From the NCBI RefSeq assembly GCF_025128055.1, contig NZ_JAHLYS010000045.1, positions 1-64,000 of the forward strand: 64,000 bases of DNA, written 5' to 3'. The notes below the pieces were generated by a model, which was given only the letters and a program-made list of their open reading frames with translations, was not told the origin of the DNA and did not search any database. Made by a program: the position numbers and the translations under genes. Positions 5,398-31,643 of this stretch are shown here, piece by piece (position 1 is the stretch's first letter; each line of letters opens with the position of its first letter). This stretch comes from Synechococcus sp. CS-1329 (GTDB taxonomy: Bacteria > Cyanobacteriota > Cyanobacteriia > PCC-6307 > Cyanobiaceae).

Positions 5398-5413
5398 TCC
5401 GTGAAATCACGGA
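5398..5413. promoter_or_regulatory. 16-bp hairpin/operator upstream of family copy A
   Basis: TCCGTGAAATCACGGA, a perfect 6-bp inverted repeat around AAAT, 79 bp before the ATG at 5477. The same element sits 79-80 bp before the ATG in four other copies of the family. A TACTAT sequence, like a -10 element, follows at 5437-5442. It could be a regulator binding site or an RNA hairpin. Confidence 0.6.
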
Positions 5414-5476: not shown

Positions 5477-5962
5477 ATGGCAGAGAACGAAGCGCCGGTT
5501 TCCTCGGCTCAGCCCGATCCGTTTCCTTTCCTTGATCGCGCCGGTTCTGCCTCCCTTGTCGGCGGCTGCCTGGTCGTTCTGATCACGTTCTTGACCTCCT
5601 ACAGCCATGTCGATCTCCTCGGGATCCGCTTCAACGTCAATCAGCAAATCGGAATTCCTGTCCTCCTTGCCGCCGTGGCGGCGCTGGTTGGCGAAGTTAA
5701 ATTGGCATCCAACGATCGATGCGCAGATCAGGGCGCTCGAGAGCAAGAGGCGAGAGCTCGAGAGCGAGAGGCGAACGAAGCTGCTCGAGAAAGAGATCAA
5801 TCAGCTCGATCAAGAGAACAAGCGGCTCGCCGATCTCGAATCCAAGCTCGATGCCTTGTTGCTCAGTGCCGATTCCTCCTCGCCGACACCGCCCTCAACC
5901 GGCTCCAGCTGAGTGAAGCCTTAGCCGTGTTGATGGAAGAGATCAAGCCGTCTGAATCCTGA
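5477..5962 (+). CDS. two-TM coiled-coil protein, dispersed family copy A
   Basis: A 161-residue protein of a family repeated through this island. It has a short polar N-terminus, a hydrophobic segment at about 26-42 (ASLVGGCLVVLITFLTSY), a loop containing HVDLLGI, and a second hydrophobic segment at about 60-76 (IGIPVLLAAVAALVGE). A strongly charged Arg/Glu/Ala-rich coiled coil follows at about 85-125, then a conserved helix (LSEALAVLMEEI) at the C-terminus. It is therefore probably a membrane hairpin with a cytoplasmic coiled coil. The function is unknown and I recognise no named family. A 101-residue frame shifted by one base (5607-5912) is also open through the coiled coil. Near-identical intact copy: 27502-28008. 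Confidence 0.6.
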   Translation: MAENEAPVSSAQPDPFPFLDRAGSASLVGGCLVVLITFLTSYSHVDLLGIRFNVNQQIGIPVLLAAVAALVGEVKLASNDRCADQGAREQEARAREREANEAARERDQSARSREQAARRSRIQARCLVAQCRFLLADTALNRLQLSEALAVLMEEIKPSES

Positions 5963-9334: not shown

Positions 9335-9350
9335 TCCGTGAAACCACGGA
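9335..9350. promoter_or_regulatory. hairpin/operator upstream of family copy C
   Basis: TCCGTGAAACCACGGA, arms intact, 79 bp before the ATG at 9414. A TACTAT sequence follows, as in copy A. Confidence 0.55.
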
Positions 9351-9413
9351 TGCAAGTACGAGCAATACTGGCATACTATTGCACATCGGCTTGGGGTTGG
9401 TTTCGCTGCGGTC

Positions 9414-9650
9414 ATGTCAGAGAATGAAGCGCTGGTTTCCTCCGCTCAGCTCGATCCGTTTCCCTTCTTCGGTCGCGTCGGCTAGGCCTCACTCGTCGGC
9501 GGCTGCCTGGTTGTTCTGATCACGTTCTTAACCTCCTACAACCATGTCGATCTCTTCGGGATCCGCTTCAGCGTCAATCAGCAAATCGGAATTCCTGTCC
9601 TCGTTGCCTTGTTGCTCAGTGCCGATTCCTCCTCTCAGGCACCACCCGAA
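9414..9650 (+). pseudogene. two-TM coiled-coil family, broken copy C
   Basis: The N-terminal half matches copy A (MSENEALVSSAQ, then the membrane segments), but there is a stop codon at about residue 23 and the entire coiled-coil region is deleted. The frame jumps from GIPVLVA straight to the LLLSADSSS end of the alternative frame and runs on into the vapB gene. Confidence 0.75.
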
Positions 9651-12057: not shown

Positions 12058-12435
12058 GGGTTTCGACGCCAAGGCGCTCGTTGAATTCGTGTTTGGAAAC
12101 GTCGTTGGCCTGATCGCTCTTTTTCCTCCGATGTCCACGTCACCCTCCCCCGCCGCCAGCTCCCTCTCCAGCAGCAATAGGGCGTCTGGCTCATCGCTCC
12201 CTCCCTTCCGCTTGTTGTTGCGGATGCTCAACTGGCGGCGCGATCCCGCCGCTGAACAGCGTTCGATACAGGTCGAGAGAGTGCTCGCATTGCTCAACCG
12301 GATACACTCCCAGCTCGACATGATCGAGGGCGGCTTGCCTTCTAGGTCGACCCCTCCGCCAACAATCGCCGCAAAATCCAGCGACTGTTGTACTTGCTCA
12401 ATTGCTCTGAGCTGACTGAGCTCTATCGCGGCTGA
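12058..12435 (+). pseudogene. second coiled-coil membrane family, broken copy
   Basis: About 75-80% similar at DNA level by eye to 12748-13125. The same order of membrane segment, QQQ-G-WLIA segment and Arg-rich helix can be read, but in-frame stops occur at the QQQ position (TAG), after RSRR (TGA) and in the later helix (TAG). Not functional. Confidence 0.65.
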
Positions 12436-12699: not shown

Positions 12700-13125
12700 G
12701 CTGGTGGTTGTCGGGATCTGGATGCGCCGCCGCCCTGGTGGCGGCTGGGGTTCGATGGCAATGCCCTGCTGGAAGCCGTCGTTGGAACAGTTGTTGGCCT
12801 GATTGCTCTGTTTTCTTCCTATGACCACATCAACCTCCCAGAACGAGCTCTCCCGCTCCAGCAGCAATGGGGCGTCTGGCTCATCGCTCTCTCCCTTCCG
12901 CTCGTTTTTGCGGATGCTCAACTGGCGGCGCGATCCCGCCGCCGAACAGCGCAGGATGCAGCTCGAGAAAGAGCTCGCGTTGCTGAGCTGGATGCACTCC
13001 GAGCTCGACTTGATCGAGGCCGACTTGCCTTCCAGCTCGACCCCTCCGCAGGCAATCGCCGCAAACTCCAGCGACTGCTGAGCCTGTTCAACAGCCCAGA
13101 GATGGCTGAGCTCTATCGCGGTTGA
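12700..13125 (+). CDS. membrane coiled-coil protein, divergent paralogue, no clear start codon
   Basis: An open frame after the stop at 12697 encodes up to 141 residues: a hydrophobic segment (VVGTVVGLIALFSSY), a loop DHINLPERALPLQQQWG, a second hydrophobic segment (VWLIALSLPLVFADA), then an Arg/Ala/Glu-rich helix and LLSLFNSPEMAELYRG. It matches the dispersed family in plan and in motifs such as SYDHINL against SYSHVDL and QQWG against QQIG. No ATG, GTG or TTG precedes the first membrane segment, so it may be 5'-truncated or use CTG. Function unknown. Confidence 0.45.
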   Translation, partial: AGGCRDLDAPPPWWRLGFDGNALLEAVVGTVVGLIALFSSYDHINLPERALPLQQQWGVWLIALSLPLVFADAQLAARSRRRTAQDAARERARVAELDALRARLDRGRLAFQLDPSAGNRRKLQRLLSLFNSPEMAELYRG

Positions 13126-17071: not shown

Positions 17072-17087
17072 TCCGTGAAACCACGGA
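17072..17087. promoter_or_regulatory. hairpin/operator upstream of family copy D
   Basis: TCCGTGAAACCACGGA, 80 bp before the ATG at 17152. It persists although the gene behind it is broken. Confidence 0.55.
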
Positions 17088-17151
17088 TGCATGCGCTCAT
17101 GATACAGACGCACTATCAGTGGATCGATTTTGGCTTGGCGTCGCTACGGTC

Positions 17152-17665
17152 ATGGCAGAGAACGATGCGCCGGTTTCCTCGGCTCAGCCCGATCCGTTTC
17201 CTTTCCTTGATCGCGCTGGTTCTGCCTCCCTTGTCGGCGGCTGCCTGGTCGTTCTGATCACGTTCTTGACCTCCTACAGCCATGTCGATCTCCTCGGGAT
17301 CCACTTCAACGTCAATCAGCAAATCGGAATTCCTGTCCTCCTTGTCGCCGTGGCGGCGCTGGTTGGCGAAGACGAAGTCTTCTCCGAAGGAGTAGTTAAA
17401 CTGGCATCCAACGATCGATGCGCAGATCAGGGCGCTCGAGAGCGAGAGGCGAACGTAGCCGAAGGCCGGCGAAGCCGTAGCTGCTCGAGAGAGAGAACAA
17501 GCGGCTCGCCGATCTCGAATCCAGGCTCGTAGACGAAGTCTTCTCAGAATGAGTTGCCTTGTTGCTCAGTGCCGATTCCTCCTCTCAGACACCGCCCTCA
17601 ACCGGTTCCAGCTGAGTGAAGCCTTGGCCGTGTTGATGGAAGAGATCAAGCCGTCTGAATCCTGA
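17152..17665 (+). pseudogene. two-TM coiled-coil family, copy D with small inserts
   Basis: The membrane half matches copy A nearly perfectly. Three small palindromic inserts follow: one at 17371-17395 adds exactly eight codons (VGE-DEVFSEGV-VKLAS) and keeps the frame. One at 17454-17480 and one at 17528-17553 destroy the coiled coil. The 3' end (LSEALAVLMEEI region) is still recognisable to 17665 but out of frame. Confidence 0.75.
17371..17553. repeat. three short dispersed repeats in family copy D
   Basis: 17371-17395 (GACGAAGTCTTCTCCGAAGG then AGTAG), 17454-17480 (CGTAGCCGAAGGCCGGCGAA then GCCGTAG) and 17528-17553 (CGTAGACGAAGTCTTCTCAG). They are absent from the intact copies A and E at the same points, so they are insertions. 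Confidence 0.6.
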
Positions 17666-17766
17666 GCTTGGCTGAAGTCTGCCGATACGGCAGAGGCGAT
17701 TGGCAGCGACCCCGATAACCCCCGTAGCATGTTTATGTCTATCGCAGAATGTTGGCGTGGCATCGC

Positions 17767-18439: not shown

Positions 18440-18455
18440 TCCGTGAAATCACGGA
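18440..18455. promoter_or_regulatory. hairpin/operator upstream of a family remnant
   Basis: TCCGTGAAATCACGGA, identical to copy A, 80 bp before the ATG at 18520, with a TACTAT sequence between. Confidence 0.55.
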
Positions 18456-18519
18456 TGCATTCACTCCTTGTACTGACGTACTATCAGTGGATCGATCTGG
18501 GCTTGCCGTCGCTACGGTC

Positions 18520-18616
18520 ATGGCAGAGAACGAAGCGCCGGTTCCCTAGGCTCAGCCCGATCCGTTTCCTTGCCGATTCCTCCTCTCAGGCACCGCCCGC
18601 AACCGGCACCAGTTGA
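18520..18616 (+). pseudogene. two-TM coiled-coil family, remnant
   Basis: Starts MAENEAPVP, then a stop. The sequence jumps from the Phe-Pro region straight to the C-terminal FLLSGTARNRHQL region, with the membrane and coiled-coil parts deleted. The upstream control region is better preserved than the gene. Confidence 0.7.
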
Positions 18617-18636
18617 GTTGGGTCCCCGCACAGTCC

Positions 18637-26796: not shown

Positions 26797-26994
26797 CGAC
26801 GGGCTGGGAGCAGCGGGGCTGCGGCCATTCTGCTGGCGGATGGGTCGCCTGGTGCCTCATCAGTCGATCAGGAGTCGTTCTGATCCAATGCCCGGCTGAG
26901 ATTCGATCAGATCGATTGCGTCCAAGCTGGGGAATACCAGCCGGATTGATTATTGTTACTCTTGACAACTATAAAGCGCCAAAAGCAATTCGGC

Positions 26995-27421: not shown

Positions 27422-27437
27422 TCCGTGAAACCACGGA
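27422..27437. promoter_or_regulatory. hairpin/operator upstream of family copy E
   Basis: TCCGTGAAACCACGGA, 80 bp before the ATG at 27502, with TACTAT between. The preceding 25 bp (CCCGCTGCTGGCAGTCACGT) are shared with copy D, which defines part of the repeat boundary. Confidence 0.6.
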
Positions 27438-27501: not shown

Positions 27502-28008
27502 ATGGCAGAGAACGAAGCATCAATTTCCTCGGCTCAGCCCGATCCGTTTCCTTTCCTTGATCGCGCCGGTTCTGCCTCCCTTGTCGGCGGCTGCCTGGTC
27601 GTTCTGATCACGTTCTTTACCTCCTACAGCCATGTCGATCTCCTCGGGATCCACTTCAGCGTCAATCAGCAAATCGGAATTCCTGTCCTCCTTGCCGCCG
27701 TGGCGGCGCTGGTTGGCGAAGTTAAACTGGCATCCAACGATCGATGCGCAGATCAGGGCGCTCGAGAGCGAGAGGCGAGAGCTCGAGAGCGAGAAGCGAG
27801 AGCTCGAGAGCGAGAGGCGAACGAAGCTGCTCGAGAAAGAGATCGCGCTGCTCGAGAAAGAGAACGAGCAGCTCGCCGATCTCGAATCCAGGCTCGATGC
27901 CTTGTTGCTCAGTGCCGATTCCTCCTCTCAGACACCGCCCTCAACCGGTTCCAGCTGAGTGAAGCCTTGGCCGTGTTGATGGAAGAGATCAAGCCGTCTG
28001 AATCCTGA
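27502..28008 (+). CDS. two-TM coiled-coil protein, dispersed family copy E
   Basis: 168 residues, nearly identical to copy A apart from one added 7-residue repeat in the coiled coil (REREARA units). Two membrane segments at about 26-42 and 60-76 are followed by the charged helix and the LSEALAVLMEEI end. The DNA here has 21-bp tandem units (GAGCTCGAGAGCGAGA type), so length changes come in whole heptads and keep the frame. The one-base-shifted frame at 27632-27958 is also open and expands in step (RELESEK units). No function known. Confidence 0.6.
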   Translation: MAENEASISSAQPDPFPFLDRAGSASLVGGCLVVLITFFTSYSHVDLLGIHFSVNQQIGIPVLLAAVAALVGEVKLASNDRCADQGAREREARAREREARAREREANEAARERDRAARERERAARRSRIQARCLVAQCRFLLSDTALNRFQLSEALAVLMEEIKPSES

Positions 28009-31430: not shown

Positions 31431-31643
31431 GAGAACGAACCGCCGGTTAGAAAGCACCGGTGAGGCCTCCTTTGTTGCCGGTGTCCTGGTTGTCCTGATC
31501 ACGTTTTTTAGCTCTTACAGCTTTTAGCTCTTACAGCCATGTCGAGCTTCCCTGGATCCACTACAACGTCAACCAGCAAATCGGAATTGCTGTCGTGTTT
31601 GTCGCCGTGGCGGCGCTGGTTGGCGTAGACGAAGTATTCTCAG
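31431..31643 (+). pseudogene. two-TM coiled-coil family, remnant F
   Basis: The first residues (SENEPPVRKH) and the membrane part (EASFVAGVLVVLITFFSSYS) lie in different frames. A 15-bp direct duplication (TTTTAGCTCTTACAGC region at 31508-31535) adds a stop, and a short dispersed repeat (31624-31643) ends the copy in the same position as in copy D. The upstream hairpin is missing. Confidence 0.7.

Follow-up and report, generated by a model that had tools for sequence, protein, structure and literature searches.

A probable embedded same-strand gene pair in cyanobacteria, with heptad-sized repeats in its overlap and predicted to encode two helical proteins

Coding in two frames of the same DNA is familiar in viruses, but it is seldom accepted in bacterial chromosomes, where long overlaps on the same strand are readily written off as annotation errors. 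Among the described systems, the lambda spanins Rz/Rz1 are presented in PMC6139136 as a case in which a second gene lies, in the +1 frame, entirely inside the gene of a membrane-anchored protein; the two partner proteins form a complex, and coiled-coil domains are discussed for them there. Embedded spanin genes of this kind are the nearest analogue in mechanism of the cyanobacterial pair that we describe here. There are clear differences. Rz and Rz1 are phage lysis genes, the inner one encoding a lipoprotein of the outer membrane, whereas the cyanobacterial pair is chromosomal and often occurs in arrays. The inner protein in the window (the whole 64-kb stretch of DNA that was analysed) lacks the signal of a lipoprotein: it contains neither a cysteine nor a hydrophobic segment, its most hydrophobic 19-residue window reaching 0.33. 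Neither does the pair sit in a lysis cassette: it lies on the chromosome beside varied genes, and the outer protein of the window has no match in 50,697 phage records, nor in plasmid records. Unlike Rz/Rz1, this outer protein has two hydrophobic helices.

A bacterial gene nested inside another one in a different frame is also known from rnpA/rpmH of Thermus, according to PMC9841429. The two Thermus starts are one nucleotide apart and form one initiation site, while the inner start in the window is 130 bases past the outer one. A further difference from the Thermus genes is that none of the Pfam or NCBIfam matches of the window proteins reached the curated cut-off. A survey of 338 genomes reports no real co-directional overlap longer than 60 bp among those it analysed and classes such cases as misannotations (PMC2478687). 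The cyanobacterial overlap is far longer than 60 bp and on the same strand, yet it passes tests of conservation. No earlier account of the pair was found in the open-licence literature, as judged from titles and the beginnings of abstracts. We propose that the locus is very probably an embedded same-strand gene pair, in which an old inner gene (frame A) has its own internal start within an outer gene (frame M), both frames being under purifying selection.

The window contains intact, distant and degenerate copies of the pair (Table 1). A sequence-only reading of this DNA had placed two open frames, shifted by one base, in both intact copies and had pointed to an extra heptad in both frames of one copy. 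The open reading frame listing agrees on the frames, and the extra length is seven residues in each protein, i.e., one 21-bp unit. In the main frame of the second intact copy the longer listed open frame begins at a TTG at 26953; the ATG that matches the first copy is the one tabulated. A distant subfamily contributes one more pair in the window in which neither frame is interrupted. All eight pieces that match at the DNA level within this genome (2.58 Mb, 49 contigs) fall in the window, and a diverged paralogue is located on another contig.

Table 1. Positions of the outer (M) and inner (A) frames and of related copies in the 64-kb window
Feature	Position	Strand	Length	Basis or remark
Outer gene, frame M	5477..5962	+	161 aa	ORF, profile family, hydropathy, AlphaFold model
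Inner gene, frame A (+1 of M)	5607..5912	+	101 aa	ORF, conservation tests, AlphaFold
Main-frame His codon CAT, then G	5606..5609	+		third-base T needed for inner ATG 5607-5609
Outer gene, second intact copy	27502..28008	+	168 aa	one heptad longer
Inner gene, second intact copy	27632..27958	+	108 aa	one heptad longer
Outer gene, distant subfamily	about 12712..13125	+		main frame open; N-terminus provisional
Inner gene of distant copy 12712-13125	12821..13081	+	86 aa	same +1 register
Distant copy beside the pair at 12712-13125	12131..12415	+	94 aa (inner)	inner frame open, outer frame with stops
Degenerate copy	9388..9647	+		internal deletion and stop in outer frame
Degenerate copy	17128..17669	+		short insertions, both frames broken
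Degenerate copy	18498..18618	+		only its two ends left
Degenerate copy	31454..31636	+		only N-terminal part

Two smaller features accompany these copies. A palindromic element, TCCGTGAAANCACGGA, sits about 60-80 bases upstream of the outer start in the five near copies (5398-5413, 9335-9350, 17072-17087, 18440-18455 and 27422-27437), with no further occurrence in the window at up to one mismatch; it may belong to an operator or promoter that was amplified with the unit. Degenerate copies at 17152-17662 and 31454-31636, and one further locus, have short insertions in common that disrupt the reading frames and are DEVFSE-like when read in one of them; by their appearance, a single small motif has been inserted at several places.

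Beyond the window, the closest named matches are in Synechococcus sp. WH 5701, Cruz-7E5 (an intact pair with both frames open), 1G10 and J7-Johnson, and the overall distribution of the pair is patchy. An M profile of 10 rows finds matches in 81 of 400 genomes of the cyanobacterial family of the window (home family), and a broader profile of 33 rows does so in 32 of 386 genomes from across the phylum, including 11 home-family ones. The A-only profile, which was built solely from home-family sequences, has matches in 55 of 388 genomes drawn from the class (12 from the home family) as well as in 15 of 100 relatives of one genome from another family, the latter overlapping in part with the 55; some of its weaker matches may be generic coils. 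In 16 inspected loci from eight other families (GC content of the region 0.39 to 0.55) there is a similar protein in the +1 frame, with a typical C-terminal motif like ENxRLAELESKLDAVL. Tandem copies also occur, as in one genome with 11 M-profile matches within about 6 kb; there and in three further genomes, M and A matches were found independently of each other, one base apart modulo three.

Many copies decay, as seen from the 139 places that the A profile finds in home-family loci, a count biased toward places with a recognisable A. Both frames are open in 113 of them, and the remaining 26 are broken in the outer frame only (13), the inner frame only (5) or both (8). A copy in Synechococcus sp. 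WH 5701 has a TGA within the outer-frame stalk while its inner frame is open. Another copy of the family was met on a contig labelled Bifidobacterium breve, from a metagenome bin that is possibly mislabelled or mixed.

Database matches and neighbouring genes were compared for hints at a function. Among the members scanned (33 outer rows against Pfam and NCBIfam, 33 inner rows against NCBIfam, and the inner proteins of the two window copies against Pfam) there are scattered coil-type matches with a best E of 1.2e-07, not resolved per member. The outer profile returned two muscarinic receptor entries at E 0.005-0.007. Thirty hand-chosen flanking open reading frames include a GDP-mannose dehydratase, an epimerase, a Polysacc_synt_2 protein and a DegT-like plus Uma2 frame, and further RecJ, a pseudouridine synthase, a GTPase and a permease. 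Sugar-nucleotide and polysaccharide genes are thus found near some copies and housekeeping genes near others, and because these neighbours vary and form no single pathway, the context gave no function.

The multi-copy arrays and the many decayed copies, together with the combination of a small membrane protein and a soluble partner, could point to a regulatory or toxin-antitoxin-like pair in which one product restrains the other and the tandem, decaying copies reflect turnover. Against this, PADLOC matches for the outer family are few and scattered (three models, each matching one member of 33, best E 1.6e-5), and no toxin or antitoxin name occurs among the Pfam or NCBIfam matches listed. We consider such a pair unlikely.

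The A start was defined by the longest +1 frame, as its first ATG or, in a single sequence, GTG. It falls at column 130 of the M alignment in 80 home-family sequences and at column 128 in 22; the exception is L106, whose inner frame is interrupted. At these two columns 101 of the 103 sequences have ATG and one has GTG. In the other families the A start is found at a single alignment column in 48 of 49 sequences. An inner ATG requires a T at the third position of the M codon (NAT), followed by a G. This requirement can be followed in the 69 home-family sequences in which the motif Y-x-H-[VIL] or D-x-H-[VIL] can be recognised. The His codon is CAT in all 56 sequences with HV, and in six of them a first ATG is present at the earlier position as well. 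In all 13 sequences with HI or HL it is CAC, and the ATG lies two codons upstream, carried by TAT (11) or GAT (2): the codon after His gives no G here, so that there is no ATG at the place of His and the start sits two codons earlier. Elsewhere in the home-family genes, in counts that take in the unused codon of the same motif, CAC prevails over CAT (117 vs 64) and TAC over TAT (120 vs 28), as is also the case outside the overlap (9 vs 5 and 25 vs 12, respectively). The GAT starts say little, because Asp favours GAT anyway (557 vs 267). Judging from these codon counts, the inner frame has its own start signal, and its ATG is maintained by synonymous choices in M that track the two-codon shift of the start.

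Outside the home family, TAT supplies the inner start in 48 of 49 sequences and GAT in one, with Tyr elsewhere encoded almost evenly (TAT 65 vs TAC 60). Two codons ahead of the inner start there is an Arg in 37 of the 49, encoded by AGG (22), AGA (12), CGT (2) or CGC (1), while among 1165 Arg codons elsewhere in these genes AGG occurs 18 times and AGA 282 times. An AGG or AGA codon at this place yields GAGG or GAGA four bases before the inner ATG, which we take as a Shine-Dalgarno-like sequence. In 34 representatives of the home family, no Shine-Dalgarno-like sequence is seen ahead of the inner ATG.

A conserved open +1 frame might also be expected from programmed frameshifting, in which that frame would supply the C-terminus of a fusion begun at the main start codon, joining the membrane hairpin to the zipper. 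The inner frame, however, has a stop just ahead of its ATG, 6 or 8 codons upstream in 95 of 103 home-family sequences and 1 to 3 codons upstream in 41 of 49 sequences from the other families. Moreover, the ATG and the Shine-Dalgarno-like sequence are themselves conserved. These arguments cover shifts upstream of the ATG, and they leave frameshifting with a small chance in our estimation. Internal initiation at the inner ATG is, in turn, strongly suggested by the combination of the upstream inner-frame stop, the conserved ATG and, outside the home family, the Shine-Dalgarno-like sequence.

The openness of the +1 frame was compared with a null of synonymous codon shuffling within each gene, the A region being set by M-alignment columns independently of any open frame. 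For the home family we used 103 distinct intact M homologues whose match starts by model position 25 and reaches position 140. They contain one +1-frame stop where shuffling predicts 84.1, or about 0.8 per gene, and the A region is stop-free in 102 of 103 genes against 44.5 expected; as the homologues are related, these counts are of non-independent events. The sole homologue with an inner-frame stop is again L106. Among 34 representatives below 65% identity there is one stop against 31.5 expected, and 33 are open against 12.8. The other four frames of the home family show observed-to-expected ratios of 0.76 to 1.30.

The set from the other families comprises 49 of 61 sequences, 12 having been left out because less than 76 codons followed the anchor (the region being empty in 11). 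With a later end of the region the 61 gave 17 stops, owing to one group whose inner frame ends earlier and to some sequences anchored on a C-terminal YG/YE/YD, and the region end was moved before the test on the 49. These contain one +1-frame stop against 114.0 expected, and 48 of 49 are open against 3.9. Hence, the second frame is stop-free beyond expectation in diverged homologues. In this set the antisense frame rc0 is depleted too, with 27 stops against 97.8 expected and 27 of 49 sequences open against 4.9, while rc0 of the home family is undepleted (118 stops against 90.5). The remaining three frames range from 0.84 to 1.25, without depletion. We read the rc0 depletion outside the home family as a putative side effect of shunning codons that end in TA, which produce inner-frame stops.

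As a control, 13 genes flanking the pair in other families have an observed-to-expected ratio of +1 stops of 1.01. Five flanking genes from the home family are mildly depleted at a ratio of 0.75 (50 vs 66.7 stops, sd 5.0), indicating that the home-family null is slightly too generous. The M genes themselves display ratios of 1.41-2.35 outside the overlap.

Variation at synonymous sites of M displays a marked drop at the overlap. At 70-85% identity, the 285 home-family pairs differ at 39.4% of fourfold sites before the overlap and at 6.5% within it, and the 58 pairs from the other families at 46.4% and 10.4%, so that these sites vary 4-6 times less in the overlap than upstream; pairs in the remaining identity bins show a 2.2- to 3.6-fold drop. 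Split by part of the overlap, the home-family values at 70-85% are 3.9% for the first part, 10.1% for the coil and 8.3% for the last part. M is conserved both before and after A, with third positions free there, and M is thus coding too. The synonymous reduction of the outer frame is thereby confined to the overlap, and it is weaker in the coil. At the protein level, the similarity of A in 396 distant pairs exceeds shuffles with a z of 62.8 and a gain of 1.66 BLOSUM units per site; a stretch beyond the overlap, taken as a control, has a z of 5.6 and a gain of 0.33.

The codon-position bias that the sequence-only reading had proposed to measure is found in part of the overlap. In the first part, position 1 of M, which is position 3 of A, is the most variable. 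In the coil, position 3 of M is slightly above position 1 in every identity bin (0.207 vs 0.196); the coil therefore offers the weakest support, and owing to its repeats it is also the part with the least certain alignment. The same reading had expected common second-frame stops, and synonymous freedom of the main frame only, in the event of a single gene. We observe the opposite, a +1 frame free of stops and main-frame synonymous sites that are held in the overlap and free outside it. Between the two options it had left open, an artefact or two frames that are both read, the stop depletion, the held synonymous sites and the kept start signals support the latter.

That the main frame is the sole gene, with the +1 frame open only since GC-rich Ala/Arg/Glu codons and a 21-bp repeat hold few stops, is accordingly a reading we regard as very unlikely. 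It draws on the shuffled home-family genes, which are open about 43% of the time (44.5/103), and on the home-family control genes, which likewise lie somewhat below their shuffles. It does not account for the joint openness over diverged sequences, the lowered synonymous change or the maintenance of the start codon and the Shine-Dalgarno-like sequence, nor for the same result in the other families, where shuffles are open just 8% of the time. Least probable of all is an element acting at the DNA or RNA level (a recombination repeat or an RNA structure) that fixes the sequence without a second protein: in its favour, the family is locally amplified and its synonymous sites are constrained, yet where the overlap begins the changes fall most often on position 1 of M (position 3 of A), +1 stops are near zero, the start codon and the Shine-Dalgarno-like sequence are maintained, and the constraint does not continue unchanged before the inner start or past the inner stop.

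The two proteins of the embedded pair differ in their predicted architecture. M has hydrophobic segments at about 21-45 and 56-78, followed by a long Ala/Arg/Glu-rich helix and a C-terminal helix. The AlphaFold model of M (ten sequences) has helices at 21-42, 59-135 and 139-156, with a mean pLDDT of 64.2. From the two hydrophobic segments and the Arg-rich stretch behind them, M is probably a membrane hairpin with a cytoplasmic stalk. The stalk of 97 M proteins is built of Arg and Glu with an Ala stripe. A starts with a W-rich N-terminal segment (SKSEFLSSLPPWRRWLAKLNWHP), continues with a leucine-zipper-like helix and ends in a Ser/Pro tail; its AlphaFold model (ten sequences) contains helices at 14-20, 23-32 and 35-88, with a mean pLDDT of 75.5 and values near 90 halfway along the long helix. 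In 103 anchored A proteins, Leu or Ile recurs in heptads mainly at one site, with Asn, Thr, Ile or Leu four residues later, a pattern that resembles that of a leucine zipper.

The roughly 21-bp units and heptad steps first noted in the two window copies prove to be general. Of the 103 home-family sequences, 80 have a distance of 4 or 0 codons modulo 7 between the conserved NW[HR] of A and the inner stop. For the other families, 44 coils could be measured, and 30 of them have lengths with the same remainders; as the sequences are related, a chi-square p-value overstates these counts. Since one run of 21-bp units encodes both stalks, both proteins change by one heptad per whole unit. Each unit amounts to seven residues in either frame, and neither stalk can therefore acquire or shed a whole unit without the other. 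Such coupling of stalk lengths would suit helices that pack side by side.

We therefore picture the pair, with the caution due to predicted proteins, as follows. The outer frame would be translated into a membrane hairpin protein with a helical, probably cytoplasmic stalk. Ribosomes would also initiate inside the gene, at the conserved ATG in the frame shifted by one base, and this internal start would give rise to a second, leucine-zipper protein that is either soluble or peripheral to the membrane. Translation of both frames is inferred from the selection that acts on each of them. Gain or loss of a whole 21-bp unit would then make both proteins longer or shorter by one heptad. The purpose we regard as likeliest, with somewhat less than even confidence, is the formation, at the membrane, of a helical complex in which the lengths of the two proteins match. 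More tentatively, the pair may be an ancient overprinted one in which a single 21-bp repeat specifies two different heptad helices, so that the partner lengths are locked and expansion of the repeat retunes, in one mutation, both members of a coiled-coil complex anchored in the membrane.

As the arrangement is common to several cyanobacterial families, the dual selection is long-standing. Having passed several conservation tests, and recurring in diverged and multi-copy form, the pair provides naturally graded material for asking how the demands of two proteins are met by a single sequence. It permits a direct test of whether overlapping coding couples the lengths of partner proteins, and it points to two protein families that have no convincing model in the searched libraries.
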